25,892 nt of DNA from a virus. The position numbers were made by a program, and so were the translations under genes. The stretch is from the IMG/VR virus record IMGVR_UViG_3300049003_000059, positions 1 to 25,892 of that record; one strand, 5' to 3'. The notes beneath the pieces are model-generated. The model saw only the letters and a program-made list of their open reading frames with translations. It did no database searches and was not told the origin of the DNA. Within the stretch, counting starts at the first letter, position 1, and each line of letters opens with the position of its first letter. This document shows, piece after piece, positions 267 through 24,428 of the stretch.

Positions 267-3200
267 ATGCCCGTCAGGAAGACTTCGTTCATCCCCCGCG
301 TCGAGCAGCTCGAAGACATCTGCGTTCCCGTCCAGTGGCCGGTGAACATCCCACAGAGCCAGGTGGCGCAACTCCTCGGAACCTACGGCCAGTACCAAGA
401 GTTTAAAGCGACGTTACGAGACGCCGGCATCCACCTGCACGAGGGTATCGACATCGCGGCCGCCGCCTCGACCCCCGTGCGTGCCGTCATGACTGGCATC
501 GTCGAGGCCAGTTTCCGCGACGCCCGGGCAGGCAATTTCGACTCGGTCGTCGTGATCCGCGACGTGCAGACGGATTCCACTGGTAAGCCGCTCAGGAACC
601 CGGACGGGGGCTTCAAACTCGGCGACAAGGGCTGGAACTACAGACACGTCATTCCTGCGCAAGGGTTACGCGACGGCCAACTGGTCCAAGAAGGCGACGT
701 GATCGGGCAAGTGGCGACGTGGCCTGGGGTCGGGTACGGCGATCACCTTCACCTCGACAGGGGACTCGCCGACCGAACGCCGGGACAAAATATCGCGACA
801 CGAGACCCGACGATGGCGAACCGGGTGGAATTTACGCAGGCGCAGAACCTGAACCCCGCACTACCCGATCTCGTCAGATCGCTCCGCTTTGCCTATGCCC
901 CGACCATCAACCCGCTCACGGAATTCCTTGGCAAAAACATCGCCGGTGTCGTCGACGAGATCAAACCGACCGTGGCCTCGATCGACTTCCGCGTGAACGC
1001 CGACGATCCCACGCTCGCCAAGAATCAGAAAACGGAACGCGTCCGGAACACCGTCCGGTACTTCCAAGACACCGTCACGTACGGCCAGGACGCCGTCCGG
1101 GTGGTCGGCGCGAACGCCGTGGCGCGCGCCGCCGACGGGAAACGGGTCAGCGGCCGGGGCGACGGGGCCGAAATCGACTTCGTCGTGGAAGCGTTCGACC
1201 AGTTCGGCTCGAAGGCGAGCCCGGGGGAGCAGCGGCTGAACCCGCTCTCGTTCGACTTTACGGTTACTGGGAAAGCGTTCAAGCAGACCTCCGGGAAGGT
1301 GGCATCGTTCGACTTCAGCGGTTTCCCCAAAGAGGGAATCGATGGATTCTTCCAACTGAAGACCGCGCGGGCCTTCTACGAGAACGACACGAACCACGAC
1401 TCCGTCATGAGCGTGGCCGGACCGGACGCCCGCGGACCGTTCTTCTACGCGGTCACCAACTCCCCGCGAGTCAACGCCGCCGAGGGGAAGGCGGGAAAGC
1501 CCACCGACTTCGCCTCGGTCGCGAACGGCGGGTACGCGTGGCGGTCCGACGCCAAAGCCGGATCCACGTTCTACCCCGGCGCGGCCTCCCAGGCGAAGAA
1601 CAACGCCGCCTCCGCATACCCGGACGACATTTACAACGTCACGGTCCGGGCGACGGATCTGGCGGACCTCACCGGCGAGAAAACGGTCACAATTCTACTC
1701 AACAACTGGCAGCGGACGCTCACGACCGACAAAGCCGCATACGCTGCGAACGAAGAGATCAAGGTCGCCGGATCCCAGTTCCGGGCACGACAGGACGTCA
1801 ACTTTTATCTCGTCCCGGTGACGAAGGATGGCGACAAACCCCAAAAGGAACCCGCCGCCGGAACCAAGTTGGAGGACGCGCAGAAGGTCGGCACGCTCAC
1901 CACGATCAAGATTTCCGATAACCCCAACGACCCCGCGAACGGAACGTTCTCCAGTGCGGCCAAGCTGACCATCCCCGCCGGGCTGGCGGCTGGGACTTAT
2001 CACCTCGTCGCCGACTATGACGGCGACGGCATCTATACCCCCAGGCTCGACGTCGCCACACAAGTCACGATCAAGAACGCGAACAAGCAGCCGGCGAAGG
2101 CGGATCTGACCGGACCCGACGATATCGTCTACCAGGGCCAGGCCATCCAGCTCACCGCCCTCGTTTCGGCCGACGCACCGGGGCAACCAGCGCCACCGAC
2201 CGGGGTCGTCGGATTCTTCGCGGACGGCGGGTTCCTCGGCGCCGTCTCGGCGGTCAACGGCGCGGCGGCGTATACCCTCCCGGCCCTCGTCGGGAGCCAC
2301 ACGTTCGCCGCCGTGTATTACGGCGACGACACGTACGATGCAGCCGAGGGGAGCCTGACCAGCGAAGTTGCGGCACACACCATCAGCACGACTACCAGCG
2401 CCTCGCCATCCACGGCCGCCTTCGGGGACAGTATCCTCCTGAGCGCGAGTGTAGCCTCGAACGAAGAGACGGCGATACCGGTCGGCGGCGAGGTTGCGTT
2501 CTACCTCGGCGACGAATACGTCGGCTCCGCGCCGGTGGAAGACGATGGGACGGCCTCACTTTCGATCGGCGGACCCGAGCGCGGGTCGGGACTGATTCGG
2601 GCCGTTTACAGCGGCGACGAGGTGTTCGCCGAAAGTTCAGCCTCCGCGGCGTACACTGTCACGGACAACGCGCCCGCCGCCGCGCCCGACACCGCACTCG
2701 CCCACAAGAATACCTCGGTCGGTGGCAACGTTCTGGGCAACGACACCGACGTCGATGCCGATACCCTTTCCGCTTCCGTGTACTCCGGCCCATCTCACGG
2801 TACCCTTACCCTCTCTGCCGACGGGTCGTTCGTCTACACTCCGAACACCGACTACACCGGGTCCGACTCGTTCACCTACGCGGTCGATGACGGGTACGGG
2901 GGGAGCGCCACGGCCACCGTCACCATCGCCGTCGCGGATACTCCTGCCCCGGTTGGCACAGCCGACGGCTACACTGCGGCAGCCGACATCGTCGTGGACG
3001 CCGCAAACGGGGTGCTGGCCAACGACACCGCCCCGAACGGTGGGGCGCTGGTCGCGACCCTCGCGAGCGGCCCCCGGCACGGCGCTTTGGCCCTCAGCCC
3101 CGACGGGTCGTTCGTTTACACCCCGGACGACGGGTTCACCGGGTCCGACTCGTTTACCTATTATCCGACCGACGCCGACGGCCCGGGGCCGGCGACGCTC

Positions 3201-4334
3201 GTCAACCTCGTCGTTACTGATCACCCGCCGCAGGTCGAGGACGACGCCGCGACCACGAGCGAGGAGACGCCGGTCACGCTGGCGGTGCTGGCCAACGACA
3301 CAGATGCCGACGGCACTCCCCTCGCGATCCTCGGGGTGTCGGACGGGGCGTTCGGCACGACGACCGTGAACGCCGACGGCACCATCACCTACACCCCCGA
3401 CCGGAACCGGAATGGGACGGACACGTTTACCTACGTGGTCGATGACGGGTACGGCCGATCGGCCGTCGGCACGGCGACCGTGACCGTCACCCCGGTGAAC
3501 GACACCCCGGCGATCGGCTCCGACCAACTCATCACCCCGCAGGACACGGCGATCGACGTCGATCTCCGCTCCCTGGCGACCGACGTCGAGACCGCGCCCG
3601 AGGACCTGACGTTCGCGGTGAGTTGGGCGCAGAACGGGACGGTCGAGCTCTTGGCCGACGGGCACACCGCCCGGTTCACCCCCAACCCGGGGTACGCCGG
3701 GCCGGCCAGCTTCTCCGTCTCCGTGACCGACACCGGCGACGGGGACAGCGCCCCGCTGACGGCCTACGGGAGCGTCTCGGTGCTGGTGGACGCGCCGCCG
3801 GTGGCCTACGGGGCCAACCTGTCGATGCACCTGGCCCCGGGCGAGACGGCCGCCATCCACCTGTTCTACTACGACCCCGACGGCGGCGCGGTGACGCTGG
3901 TCGACTACACCCTGCCCGACCGGGGCAGCATCGGCGTGGCGGCCGGCGGGTTCCAGTTCAACTACACCGCCCCCGACCCGGCGTTCGTCGGCGCCACCTC
4001 GTTCACCTACACGGTGCGCGACGGGGAGGGGAACGAGGTCACCCGCACGGTCACCGTCAACCTGACCAACCAGCCGCCGCAGGGGTCCAACGCGTCCGCG
4101 TCCACGTCCTCCGGCACGCCGGTCGGCGTGGGCGCGTGGTACTACGACCCGGACGGGGACGCGCTGGCCGTGTCGGTGTCCCAGCCGTCGGTCGGGTCGG
4201 TCGGGTACGACCAGTGGGGCCAGATGGTGTACACCCCGCCGTCGAACTTCACCGGGCAGGTCACGTTCAGCATGGTCGTGGACGACGGGCACGGCGGGTC
4301 GCTCACCATCTACGTCACCGTCAACGTGACGTGA
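267..4334 (+). CDS. Giant exported protein: M23 (LytM-type) peptidase domain followed by Ig-like and cadherin-like repeats
   Basis: This 1,355-aa protein starts at an ATG preceded by a GAGGAG Shine-Dalgarno at about 254-260. Residues 11-20 carry RVEQLEDICV, the planctomycete-style N-terminal motif of exported proteins. Residues about 50-170 form an M23 metallopeptidase domain: H58 and D62 (HEGID) and H162 (HLH, 160-162) fit the zinc ligands, while H127 (YRHV) and H160 fit the catalytic histidines. A region I do not recognise spans about 170-600. Two Ig-like domains follow (about 607-705 and 708-798), then six cadherin-like/VCBS-like domains of about 93 residues starting near 800, 890, 984, 1077, 1174 and 1267, each with VLxNDTD or YYDPDG strands and FTY near the end. 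No C-terminal anchor is visible. The likely role is cell-surface adhesion combined with peptide cross-link cleavage. Catalytic activity is inferred from the conserved residues only. Confidence 0.9.
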   Translation: MPVRKTSFIPRVEQLEDICVPVQWPVNIPQSQVAQLLGTYGQYQEFKATLRDAGIHLHEGIDIAAAASTPVRAVMTGIVEASFRDARAGNFDSVVVIRDVQTDSTGKPLRNPDGGFKLGDKGWNYRHVIPAQGLRDGQLVQEGDVIGQVATWPGVGYGDHLHLDRGLADRTPGQNIATRDPTMANRVEFTQAQNLNPALPDLVRSLRFAYAPTINPLTEFLGKNIAGVVDEIKPTVASIDFRVNADDPTLAKNQKTERVRNTVRYFQDTVTYGQDAVRVVGANAVARAADGKRVSGRGDGAEIDFVVEAFDQFGSKASPGEQRLNPLSFDFTVTGKAFKQTSGKVASFDFSGFPKEGIDGFFQLKTARAFYENDTNHDSVMSVAGPDARGPFFYAVTNSPRVNAAEGKAGKPTDFASVANGGYAWRSDAKAGSTFYPGAASQAKNNAASAYPDDIYNVTVRATDLADLTGEKTVTILLNNWQRTLTTDKAAYAANEEIKVAGSQFRARQDVNFYLVPVTKDGDKPQKEPAAGTKLEDAQKVGTLTTIKISDNPNDPANGTFSSAAKLTIPAGLAAGTYHLVADYDGDGIYTPRLDVATQVTIKNANKQPAKADLTGPDDIVYQGQAIQLTALVSADAPGQPAPPTGVVGFFADGGFLGAVSAVNGAAAYTLPALVGSHTFAAVYYGDDTYDAAEGSLTSEVAAHTISTTTSASPSTAAFGDSILLSASVASNEETAIPVGGEVAFYLGDEYVGSAPVEDDGTASLSIGGPERGSGLIRAVYSGDEVFAESSASAAYTVTDNAPAAAPDTALAHKNTSVGGNVLGNDTDVDADTLSASVYSGPSHGTLTLSADGSFVYTPNTDYTGSDSFTYAVDDGYGGSATATVTIAVADTPAPVGTADGYTAAADIVVDAANGVLANDTAPNGGALVATLASGPRHGALALSPDGSFVYTPDDGFTGSDSFTYYPTDADGPGPATLVNLVVTDHPPQVEDDAATTSEETPVTLAVLANDTDADGTPLAILGVSDGAFGTTTVNADGTITYTPDRNRNGTDTFTYVVDDGYGRSAVGTATVTVTPVNDTPAIGSDQLITPQDTAIDVDLRSLATDVETAPEDLTFAVSWAQNGTVELLADGHTARFTPNPGYAGPASFSVSVTDTGDGDSAPLTAYGSVSVLVDAPPVAYGANLSMHLAPGETAAIHLFYYDPDGGAVTLVDYTLPDRGSIGVAAGGFQFNYTAPDPAFVGATSFTYTVRDGEGNEVTRTVTVNLTNQPPQGSNASASTSSGTPVGVGAWYYDPDGDALAVSVSQPSVGSVGYDQWGQMVYTPPSNFTGQVTFSMVVDDGHGGSLTIYVTVNVT

Positions 4335-4539: not shown

Positions 4540-4595
4540 AACGCACCTCCTGCACCCAGTTCAGCGCGAGAGCTTGAAAAGCGCAATGTGCGTTG

Positions 4596-5066
4596 TCAGG
4601 CCGCAGCTCGTTGGATTGGCTTCCCGGCCTTGTACTCTTTCCCCGGCAAGAGGTATCTTTCGTTCGCCAGCGCGAAACACTCGTCGGGCGGGACGCCGAG
4701 CGCGAGGAAGTTGAAGTCGAACAGCGTTTCGTTCCCGTCCCAAACCGTCGAGTGCTTTTCGCTGGTGACGATCCGCCATTCCCGATGCGGCTCGACGAGT
4801 TGCGCGAGGCGGAGGTTGAAGTTCACCAACCAGTGACATGCGGAGTGCTTCACGTACCGCCAGAAGCGCGGCTGCGGACCCCGGTGGAAGATCCACCAGT
4901 CACAGCTCTCGAACTCGTGCGGGTACTGGCCGTGGGTGAACGGCTTCTTCCACCTGCCGAAGGTGTACTTGTTGAAGTCGCGGACGAGGACGGCATTCAC
5001 CCTGCGGTCGGTGAGGTGCGGCTCGATCTTCCGCGTCCAGTGGCGTTTCAGGTCATAATAGTGCAT
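4596..5066 (-). CDS. Hypothetical protein, aromatic-rich, 156 aa
   Basis: The protein is rich in Trp, His, Phe and Arg (for example ESCDWWIFHRG and HSACHWLVNFNL), with well-mixed codons and no low-complexity runs. This makes it much more convincing than the plus-strand frame over the same bases. I do not recognise the family. Residues 53-110 hold a cluster of Trp/His/Cys that might form a small fold or metal site, and no membrane segment is present. The ATG at 5064-5066 has no strong Shine-Dalgarno, so the start is uncertain, but there is no better in-frame alternative. It lies downstream of a strong minus-strand terminator (5121-5152), so it probably has its own promoter in 5067-5120. Confidence 0.65.
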   Translation of the reverse strand: MHYYDLKRHWTRKIEPHLTDRRVNAVLVRDFNKYTFGRWKKPFTHGQYPHEFESCDWWIFHRGPQPRFWRYVKHSACHWLVNFNLRLAQLVEPHREWRIVTSEKHSTVWDGNETLFDFNFLALGVPPDECFALANERYLLPGKEYKAGKPIQRAAA

Positions 5067-5120
5067 GGGGCGAGAGTGCCGCGATTTCGGGAGGCTGTCA
5101 AGCGGCGCCTTAAAACGACG

Positions 5121-5152
5121 AAAAAGCCCCCGCGCGCCGAAGCGCCGGGGGC
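5121..5152 (-). terminator. Strong rho-independent terminator, minus strand
   Basis: Read on the minus strand, a GC-rich stem of about 11 pairs closes a C(TTCG)G tetraloop and is followed by TTTTT (5125-5121). It lies 16 bases past the TAA at 5169-5171 that ends the remnant reading frame coding LFRK. It therefore looks like the native terminator of the gene whose 3' end was displaced by the HNH insertion. Confidence 0.85.
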
Positions 5153-5168
5153 AGGTGGGAGTATTCAG

Positions 5169-5207
5169 TTACTTGCGGAACAGCTCCGCGGTCTGCGGTG
5201 CGATCAC
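5169..5207 (-). pseudogene. 3'-end remnant of a MAKKK-family gene
   Basis: In one minus-strand frame these bases read VIAPQTAELFRK then TAA. The intact neighbour at 5825-6223 ends VVAIAQLFRK then TGA. The DNA matches closely over the last codons (CTGTTCCGCAAG against CTGTTCCGGAAG). The remnant has no start of its own and sits directly before a strong terminator. The simplest reading is that this is the original 3' end of the gene, cut off when the HNH unit entered. The matching stretch is short, so convergence cannot be excluded. Confidence 0.5.
5171..5183. repeat. Direct repeat, left copy, flanking the HNH unit
   Basis: ACTTGCGGAACAG here matches ACTTCCGGAACAG at 5827-5839 in 12 of 13 bases, in the same orientation. 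Both encode the same C-terminal codons (LFRK, minus strand). The two copies bracket the HNH gene and its leader. Confidence 0.6.
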
Positions 5208-5214
5208 GCAAAAA

Positions 5215-5249
5215 GCTAGCACTTGCGCCGTTTAGACGGTCGTGCTAGC
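5215..5249. other. Perfect inverted repeat/hairpin in the HNH leader
   Basis: GCTAGCAC (5215-5222) and GTGCTAGC (5242-5249) pair perfectly, and an inner CCGT-TTAG-ACGG stem (5228-5239) stacks above. On the minus strand the stem is followed by TTTTTG, so it can act as a terminator there. On the plus strand it lies 29 bases upstream of the HNH start codon, where it could modulate expression or mark the end of the mobile unit. Confidence 0.55.
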
Positions 5250-5278
5250 CTCCTTCTTGTCAAGAGAAGGAGTTCACC

Positions 5279-5803
5279 ATGTCACACATTCAGGAAGAAT
5301 GGAAGCCGGTCGTTGGATTCGAGGGCTGGTATCAAGTTTCTGACCAAGGACGCATCCGCAGAATTCGGAAAGGGGCAAATGCGAAACTGAGTGGGCCGCT
5401 CCTCTTCTCCGTGGGTAGCCGAGGATACCTGATTTGTGTGCTGTGCAAGCAGGGAGAGCGGAAAAGCGTCATCGTGCATCGAATTGTAGCAATGGCATTT
5501 CTGGGTCTGCCTGGAAGTAGAAAAGAAGTCAATCACAAGGACGGCAATAAAACAAATAACCGTGTCGAAAACCTTGAATGGGTGACAAGCGGCCGAAATA
5601 AGCAGCATGGCTGCGACATGGGCCTATATCCGCTCGGCGAGCAGGTCTACAACGCCAGGTTTGGCGAGGATGATATCCGCTCCATAAGGAGACGAATTCG
5701 GAATGGTGAAAGAGCTTGCGACATTGCGCAAGAGTACGGTGTTCATCGTGGAACAATCGGGAACATTAAGCGAAGAAAATCTTGGATTCGGCTTCCAGAT
5801 TAG
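5279..5803 (+). CDS. Free-standing homing endonuclease-like protein: NUMOD4 + HNH + helix-turn-helix
   Basis: This 174-aa protein has an AAGGAG Shine-Dalgarno six bases before the ATG. Residues 6-30 (EEWKPVVGFEGWYQVSDQG) match the NUMOD4 motif. Residues 66-103 form an HNH core with VHRIVAMAF, then NHKDGNKTNN and NLEWVT; H67, N85/H86 and N94 sit at positions typical of the family. Residues about 130-170 look like a DNA-binding helix-turn-helix (ACDIAQEYGVHRGTIGNIKR). It should nick or cut a specific DNA site and promote its own spread. It runs opposite to all neighbouring phage genes, is visibly more AT-rich, has its own leader hairpin, and lies between two copies of a gene 3' end, all consistent with recent acquisition. 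Confidence 0.9.
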   Translation: MSHIQEEWKPVVGFEGWYQVSDQGRIRRIRKGANAKLSGPLLFSVGSRGYLICVLCKQGERKSVIVHRIVAMAFLGLPGSRKEVNHKDGNKTNNRVENLEWVTSGRNKQHGCDMGLYPLGEQVYNARFGEDDIRSIRRRIRNGERACDIAQEYGVHRGTIGNIKRRKSWIRLPD

Positions 5804-5824
5804 GGCTTCCTTGCCTGTCTTTAC

Positions 5825-6223
5825 TCACTTCCGGAACAGTTGGGCGATCGCGACGACCTGATCGACGCCGAGGGTCTCCACCAGGGTCTTAATTGCCTCA
5901 ACCTGCAGGGCCATGTTCGGGACGCCGTTCGCGGACGGCTTCGCAGCGGGTGCGGCCTTCGCTCCGGCCGGACGCCCTGGCTTGCCTCTGGGCTTGCTCG
6001 TTCCCTTGGCCTTATTGATCTGGCTCTTGATCGTCGAGAAGCCGCCGTTGTTGAGCGTGATGCCGAACTGCTCCTTGACGAATTTCACGCCATCTGGAGG
6101 GCTGTCCTTCCCGGCGTCGAGGGCGCGCTGAACGGCCACTCGTTGGGTGATCTTCTCGGCCGGGGGAGCGCTGGATTCCGGAGTGGCCTCGGCCTTGCCC
6201 TCGTCCGCTTTCTTCTTCGCCAT
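5825..6223 (-). CDS. Small planctomycete-type protein (MAKKK N-terminus), function unknown
   Basis: The ATG at 6221-6223 follows a GAGAGG Shine-Dalgarno at a good distance; upstream in-frame starts lack one, so 132 aa is preferred. The N-terminus is MAKKKADEGK, followed by an Ala/Pro/Glu-rich stretch. A folded segment at about 25-75 has the pattern ALDAGKDSPPDGVKFVKEQF and FSTIKSQINKAK. A basic Pro/Gly/Ala hinge (KPRGKPGRPAGAKAAPA) follows, then a C-terminal helix (MALQVEAIKTLVETLGVDQV). The layout suggests two small helical domains joined by an AT-hook-like linker (GRP), possibly DNA-binding. This is inference. I associate such proteins with Gemmataceae but cannot name a family. Its 3' end appears rebuilt by the adjacent HNH unit. 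Confidence 0.75.
   Translation of the reverse strand: MAKKKADEGKAEATPESSAPPAEKITQRVAVQRALDAGKDSPPDGVKFVKEQFGITLNNGGFSTIKSQINKAKGTSKPRGKPGRPAGAKAAPAAKPSANGVPNMALQVEAIKTLVETLGVDQVVAIAQLFRK
5827..5839. repeat. Direct repeat, right copy, flanking the HNH unit
   Basis: ACTTCCGGAACAG forms the last codons of the intact MAKKK gene (minus strand). It pairs with the left copy at 5171-5183, with one mismatch. Repeat starts are 656 bases apart and enclose the HNH gene. Confidence 0.6.
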
Positions 6224-6255
6224 CTGCGTGCCTCTCTGGGGAAGGTGCTGATGCG

Positions 6256-6283
6256 ATTCTAGCCGCGCCTTTCTGGCGAGCAA
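6256..6283 (-). promoter_or_regulatory. Candidate promoter for the MAKKK gene
   Basis: On the minus strand TTGCTC (6283-6278) and TAGAAT (6261-6256) are separated by 16 bases. This resembles a sigma-70-type promoter, with a good -10 (5/6) and a weak -35 (3/6). Transcription would start near 6249, about 26 bases before the ATG. Confidence 0.3.
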
Positions 6284-6376
6284 TTCCGAATGGGCAATAT
6301 GTGCGCTTTAATATCCTCCGGCTGTGCCGGATATTCCGGCTGCTGGTGTGCCTTCCCGTCGACCGTCGTTTCGCCG

Positions 6377-6433
6377 TATGGGGTGTCGGAGCCATAACCC
6401 GCGAAGCGGTAAAATGGCGTAGATCACCCCATA
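6377..6433. ncRNA. Three-tier nested hairpin, candidate structured RNA or cis-element
   Basis: Three stems nest around one axis: TATGGGGTG (6377-6385) with CACCCCATA (6425-6433), nine perfect pairs; GCCAT (6391-6395) with ATGGC (6414-6418), five pairs; and CCGC (6399-6402) with GCGG (6406-6409) closing a GAA loop. Internal loops are 5/6 and 3/4 bases. There is no T run, so it is not an intrinsic terminator. The stems are symmetric, so the strand is undecided; on the minus strand it would lie well upstream of the MAKKK start. No known RNA family was recognised. Confidence 0.4.
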
Positions 6434-23735: not shown

Positions 23736-24356
23736 TTACTTCAGGACGTGATCGACCAAATCGCCGTACTCTTCAAGAATCTCGCGTGCCCATTTCACGA
23801 GGTCTTGGACACGCTGGCCCGCCGGTTGCCCGGAGATCCAGAGTTCGAGGTTCTCGATGCGGTTGTCGGCTCGGTTGCCGTTCTTGTGATGGACGTTTTC
23901 TCCATCCGCAAGCGTGCGCCCGATGTGATCCGCCATTACCTGACGGTGCTGGTAGACGTACCCGTTCTTGATGGCGTTAGGGTTGGAGCGGTCATATCGA
24001 ATCACATACCCGTTGTGACCGACATGCCATTCCTTCTTGCCCTGTTCGTTCACGCGCCATTTTGCTTTGAGCGGGTCGCCGTACTTGTTCAGCGACTGGT
24101 AGTGCGAGTAACAATAGGTGCGGGCTTTTCGAGGCTTTTCACATCCGTCAATTTCGCAAACCTCGTTCAGGGCATATTTCCTGATCGGGGAATGTTTGCG
24201 CAGACCTAATGGATTGCCCGTAGCTCGCCAGCGATCCCAGTGCATCCTGCACCAGCCCTTGCCATGCGGTTTCCTGCCGCAGCCTTCAACTGAGCAGATT
24301 TGATCTGCGGCGTATCGAGTGCGACGCTTTCTTGATTGTGTTACTTCATTCGACAC
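23736..24356 (-). CDS. Second HNH endonuclease with zinc-binding Cys/His repeats
   Basis: A GTG at 24354-24356, with AGAGAGGTG just upstream, gives 206 aa; the longer frame from a TTG at 24414-24416 has no Shine-Dalgarno. Two similar Cys/His modules come first: [20 protein letters not shown], then [20 protein letters not shown], each C-x4-C-x9-C-x2-H, probably zinc-binding. The HNH core follows: [34 protein letters not shown]. It resembles free-standing homing endonucleases in phages. AT-richer than its neighbours and located directly behind the major capsid gene, a conserved target region. It is unrelated in architecture to the NUMOD4-HNH gene at 5279-5803. Confidence 0.85.
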
Positions 24357-24428
24357 TGCACCTCTCTGTCCAGCCAGCCATCCGATAAGAATAGATGGAT
24401 GAACAGGGAGATGCAAGCATCAAGGTAC

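Follow-up and report, generated by a model that had tools for sequence, protein, structure and literature searches.

An HNH endonuclease cassette between a planctomycete-phage gene and its native terminator, and a possible case of gene-end replacement

A small HNH endonuclease gene with a conserved leader of its own lies between a phage gene and the terminator into which related genes run directly, and the last codons of the invaded gene are found on both sides of it, once as the functional end of the intact gene and once as a remnant in the place of the native stop. The DNA analysed here, which we call the window, is a viral fragment of 25,892 nt (25.9 kb; IMG/VR record IMGVR_UViG_3300049003_000059), a metagenomic contig whose genes for a major capsid protein, a tape measure and a tail fibre mark it as a tailed phage. 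Its nearest relative found is L002, a region that resembles a prophage and lies in the metagenome-assembled genome of a planctomycete. We read the arrangement as a putative phage variant of an end replacement for which fungal mitochondria and the E. coli prophage e14 provide the precedents; the direction of the change and the role of the enzyme are inferred. The features of the locus are as follows.

5126-5152, minus strand: intrinsic terminator native to the MAKKK gene, from which it is now separated (fold of about -26 kcal/mol, U-run)
5169-5189, minus strand: AELFRK-TAA, what is left of the native gene end, in an open stretch of 20 codons that does not form a gene
5190-5209, minus strand: junction between cassette leader and remnant, of unexplained source; contains GATCGC, as in the gene end
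5210-5249, minus strand: terminator-like leader hairpin, GCTAGCAC..GTGCTAGC and then TTTTT (-23.4 kcal/mol, z -3.8)
5223-5251, plus strand: promoter-like TTGCGC-N17-TAGCCT, conserved in seven HNH cassettes
5250-5272, plus strand: RNA hairpin CTCCTTCTT-GTCAA-GAGAAGGAG masking the Shine-Dalgarno (SD) sequence of the HNH gene
5279-5803, plus strand: HNH endonuclease gene, 174 aa (NUMOD4, E 1e-10; HNH_3, E 1e-13; C-terminal HTH-like part; phrog_59)
5803-5824, minus strand: 3' UTR belonging to the intact copy; GCCC (within AAGCCC) lies 18 nt past the stop
5825-5845, minus strand: functional 3' end of the MAKKK gene, AQLFRK-TGA
5825-6223, minus strand: MAKKK-type gene, 132 aa, intact, ATG at 6223, ending ..VAIAQLFRK-TGA (TGA 5825-5827)

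The HNH cassette and its leader

The HNH gene and the MAKKK gene are convergent, and the TAG of the former (5801-5803) lies 21 nt from the stop of the latter, so that the intact ..AIAQLFRK-stop does stand next to the HNH stop as an earlier note on this DNA had described. Both Pfam domains of the HNH protein are intact (NUMOD4, 41.9 bits against a cut-off of 23.4; HNH_3, 51 bits against 24.8) and the protein matches phrog_59 at E 1.6e-49; it is firmly a member of the NUMOD4/HNH_3 phage HNH endonucleases. Its role is deduced from its family, and we regard it as a putative homing endonuclease that would cut the empty allele. The MAKKK protein matched nothing in Pfam, PHROG or NCBIfam. It carries an AT-hook-like basic stretch, KPRGKPGRPAGAK, and its family is multicopy in some planctomycete genomes (at least four copies in G188, for example).

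A search of the relatives' DNA showed that window positions 5216-5272 recur in the host genome of L002, immediately before an HNH homologue. When HNH genes of many planctomycetes were compared, a common leader (window 5210-5281) emerged that is shared by seven cassettes, in the window, L057, L060, L063, L065, L078 and L082, all of them planctomycete HNH cassettes. Over about 70 nt it holds TTGC(G/A)C, a gap of 16-17 nt, a TANNCT-like hexamer, an SD-pairing hairpin and the ATG, and the opposite strand of most of the seven leaders is a hairpin followed by a T-run; the two promoter-like hexamers are contained in this terminator-like hairpin, and the SD-pairing hairpin comes after it. A covariance model built on five of the leaders and scanned over 397 genomes recovered the remaining two, each directly upstream of an HNH gene; weak matches in G053, G206 and G106, where there is no HNH gene, were taken as chance. 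The leader matched no Rfam family. We call its two hexamers promoter-like on the strength of their conservation, a simple sigma-70 consensus scan calling no promoter there.

The claim that the MAKKK gene has been separated from its terminator is right but incomplete, in that the cassette carries a terminator-like hairpin of its own on the minus strand (5210-5249). Since transcription from the MAKKK gene, once it had crossed the HNH gene in antisense, would come upon this hairpin, the cassette may make good the loss of the displaced terminator, and the hairpin is a possible new terminator for the MAKKK gene. A leader of about 70 nt that combines a promoter with a masked start and, on the opposite strand, a terminator would explain how entry between a gene and its terminator could be possible with transcription spared, and its conservation offers a handle for finding further cases. 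Two other kinds of element were rejected: a group I intron or intein (positions 4900-6400 gave no match to Rfam at E<=1, and the HNH gene is on the opposite strand), and an integrase-borne element of the e14/icd type (the insert contains the HNH gene alone and no integrase). A second, different HNH_3 gene adjoins the capsid gene at 23736-24416 and is without a leader of the cassette type.

Empty sites and the native terminator

If the HNH unit is an insert then relatives with an empty site should show the gene running straight into the terminator, as the earlier note predicted, and this is the arrangement that we found in L002 and at four other orthologous sites (L003/L029, L087, L030 and L096), where the gene is followed after 5-19 nt by the same kind of terminator. 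In L002 a gene 79% identical to the MAKKK gene is followed by its stop, 19 nt and a homologous terminator, the terminator block being 93% identical between the two (window 5112-5152, L002 3677-3716). The spacing is 16-18 nt in L003/L029, L030 and L096 and 5 nt in L087; the orthologue in L028 has no terminator of such kind nearby. In the window, nothing but the remnant and the antisense strand of the HNH gene precedes the terminator at 5126-5152, which bears out the claim of an AELFRK-stop before a strong terminator with no other gene to serve. The stop of the remnant stands 16 nt from it, to be compared with 19, 18, 17, 16 and 5 nt in the orthologues, and the remnant occupies the position of the native stop.

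Both flanks of the insert are L002-like, at 82% over 757 bp for the MAKKK gene with its upstream DNA and at 87% identity for the next conserved small gene beyond the terminator, so that the conserved block has gained about 650 nt, as a net insert between stop and terminator. Between the terminator and that next conserved small gene, which is Cys-rich, lies a variable slot (window 4540-5125, L002 3720-5000) that holds a 156-aa gene in the window and an unrelated 458-aa gene in L002.

The window is the sole occupied site found. The orthologue profile run against viral sequences, and searches of phage and plasmid collections and of planctomycete genomes, gave no second one, only empty sites or distant homologues, and none came from a scan for the terminator pattern (74 hits, not inspected singly); no HNH gene adjoins any of the other MAKKK homologues examined. 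Side-by-side MAKKK paralogues, which the earlier note took as a sign against insertion, were not seen beside any orthologue.

Two gene ends and their origin

The intact end reads AQLFRK-TGA and then GTAAAGACAGGCAAGGAAGCCCC, and the remnant reads AELFRK-TAA and then CTGAATAC. The direct repeat of 12/13 bp that had been noticed between them (5171-5183 and 5827-5839) is real, though weak by itself: it is modestly above chance, being equalled in 28 of 20,000 random 58-mers of the window, and a free search of the 250-nt flanks gave a score of 10 against 8-9 in shuffles. The motif A.LF.K-stop, of which the A, L, F and K are invariant among the orthologues, was found in none of 20,000 random 58-mers and, over all six frames of the window, in two places only, the intact end and the remnant. 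This motif and its spacing to the terminator are not chance.

Five of the 21 nt differ between the intact end and the remnant, with A.LFRK-stop retained. Two of the differences are silent codon changes, two fall in one codon that is variable among the orthologues and the last is TAA for TGA; the chance that five random changes would retain A.LFRK-stop is P 0.0025. The 3' UTRs of the two ends differ about as much as those of the window and L002, that is, at an inter-species level. Given this probability and this level of difference, the remnant probably diverged as the end of a still-working gene, and the mostly silent changes together with the UTR divergence point to two alleles, a donor and a recipient, rather than to a fresh target-site duplication, an argument that hangs on five differences since the remnant is just 21 nt long. 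A by-eye count against L002 over this short stretch gave 5 differences for the intact copy and 8 for the remnant. As the body of the MAKKK gene keeps about 80% identity with L002 all the way to the stop, its functional end is not of distant source. The simplest reading would be that each end formerly belonged to a working gene, in two related phages, before a single event united them. Most orthologues start their terminator (GCCCC..) at the spacing where the UTR of the intact copy has GCCC, which suggests that from this position the cassette was joined inside the 5' arm of a terminator.

We think it probable that a mobile HNH cassette arrived in the 3' part of the MAKKK gene through recombination between two related planctomycete phages. 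The cassette would consist of its own promoter, the SD-masking hairpin, the HNH gene and the minus-strand terminator hairpin, and a cut by the HNH enzyme near the gene end may have been the starting event. At the gene-side joint, homology with the gene body would have been used, so that the functional end, the 3' UTR and the first terminator bases came or belonged with the cassette; the far-side joint was probably illegitimate and would lie immediately before the last codons of the recipient. The two ends would thus stem from two alleles, and the outcome would be a working gene with the end of one, an opposed HNH gene, and the AELFRK-stop and terminator of the other as a remnant, with the leader hairpin presumably now terminating the MAKKK transcript. 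The replacement end may either have been supplied by the cassette itself or have been carried as flanking DNA in repair or recombination. Counting against this origin are the single occupied site known, the unexplained junction at 5190-5209 and the lack of any other clean end duplication.

A single genome could also have been entered, with repair synthesis doubling about 45 bp from the gene end to the start of the terminator and the outer copy drifting afterwards, no foreign allele being involved. The order of end, UTR and terminator start is the same on both sides, as expected from a duplication, and strong flanking repeats do occur at some other HNH loci (16/17 bp in L069, for example). A drifting remnant should lose its coding features, however, and here A.LFRK-stop was kept through five changes which, the stop TAA/TGA aside, are silent or at the sole orthologue-variable residue. 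The shortness of the compared stretch keeps duplication with drift in play as an unlikely but serious contender, and we grade it as less likely than recombination between two phages. Plain phage mosaicism, in which the joint merely happens to fall at a gene 3' end, one parent already had the HNH gene and the enzyme was uninvolved, seems to us distinctly improbable. Phage genomes are mosaic and nuclease genes often sit at the borders of exchange (PMC10448857), and the region past the terminator varies too, in the 156-aa gene of the window and the 458-aa gene of L002; the cassette, however, fits precisely into the space between the two ends: about 20 nt separate its leader edge from the remnant and 21 nt its stop from that of the gene, a closeness that an unrelated joint would not require. 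We give hardly any weight to a coincidental AELFRK-stop or a misassembled contig, which the weakness of the 12/13 repeat alone and the origin of the contig as a metagenomic viral fragment might suggest, given a motif absent from all 20,000 random 58-mers, the native terminator spacing, the conserved block on both sides and a 13-bp repeat below the usual word lengths of assemblers.

Known systems and other HNH loci

In fungal mitochondria, mobile ORFs (mORFs) with foreign C-termini are known from Allomyces atp6, Glomus atp6, atp9, cox2 and nad3, Rhizopus atp9 and Mortierella cox2; that C-terminus arrives with the endonuclease gene, and its native counterpart stays behind (PMC3630166). The window shares with them a free-standing gene of homing-endonuclease type at a gene 3' end, with the replacement C-terminus adjoining and the native one on the far side, and differences between the two ends that are mostly silent; in the mitochondrial genes these indicate another lineage, as they may do here. 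It differs in being a phage, in having an HNH rather than a LAGLIDADG or GIY-YIG enzyme, in the duplication of only about 7 codons, and in an HNH gene that is convergent with its target and has its own promoter/terminator leader; it is also known from sequence alone. No donor allele for the MAKKK gene end was found among the relatives searched. The insertion of e14 in icd left a 165-bp icdC remnant with 12 nt differences (PMC11148124), and the icd and tRNA-gene islands in general are likewise integrative elements by which a gene end is replaced (PMC10111431). There too the insertion is within a gene end, with the replacement on the gene side and a remnant on the other, but those elements use an integrase and att sites, whereas the insert of about 650 bp in the window has no integrase. 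The free-standing HNH homing endonucleases mobA-mobE of T4-like phages, in the sections of their description drawn on here, are small intergenic genes, and T4-type homing genes have, close to where the endonuclease gene begins, terminators and hairpins that mask the SD sequence (PMC2988022), as in the window; those sections describe splitting or plain intergenic insertion and, unlike the window, no duplicated target-gene end. A limited literature search found no report of end replacement by a free-standing phage HNH gene.

If our reading is true, mitochondria and integrase-borne elements are not alone in sparing an invaded gene by bringing a second copy of its end, and endonuclease genes as small as those of phages can alter how the genes next to them end. 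One could speculate further, although we think it rather unlikely, that there is a phage counterpart of the mitochondrial end-replacing mORFs, namely HNH cassettes made for gene 3' ends, whose leader would be both endonuclease promoter and terminator of the invaded gene, and which would travel with a gene end recoded by silent changes, perhaps shielding the occupied allele from cutting.

Duplicated gene ends were sought at 129 HNH loci including the window, with swapped pairs as the null. The 128 other loci gave no clean case in the form that the test required, and end duplication was found in 0 of the 6 other cassettes with the same leader. In this unguided test the score of the window is unexceptional (equalled by 25 of 3000 null pairs), and the case therefore rests on the empty-site context. 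Since no other HNH locus has a clean case, end replacement would be an accident of one arrival, or rare, rather than a fixed property of the cassette. Apart from the window, L079 alone stands out in the test; it was rejected as a second end duplication, the HNH gene there being flanked by whole paralogous genes; an 18/20-bp repeat in L008, a short common motif within coding sequence, was likewise set aside.

Some of these loci have features of their own. The cassette of L079 (1175-2345) lies between two paralogous small genes (MTPxQIxxDLIRIYG..) and has leader-like matches facing both ways. In L069 a 16/17-bp direct repeat, TTCACAAAATrGCGATC, is present on both flanks of the HNH gene and resembles a target duplication. 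In L209 (2262-5097) two leader-bearing HNH cassettes flank a gene at 3009-3881 on the minus strand, ArdC-type antirestriction-like by eye, and one of the two HNH genes is convergent with it at a distance of 40 nt.
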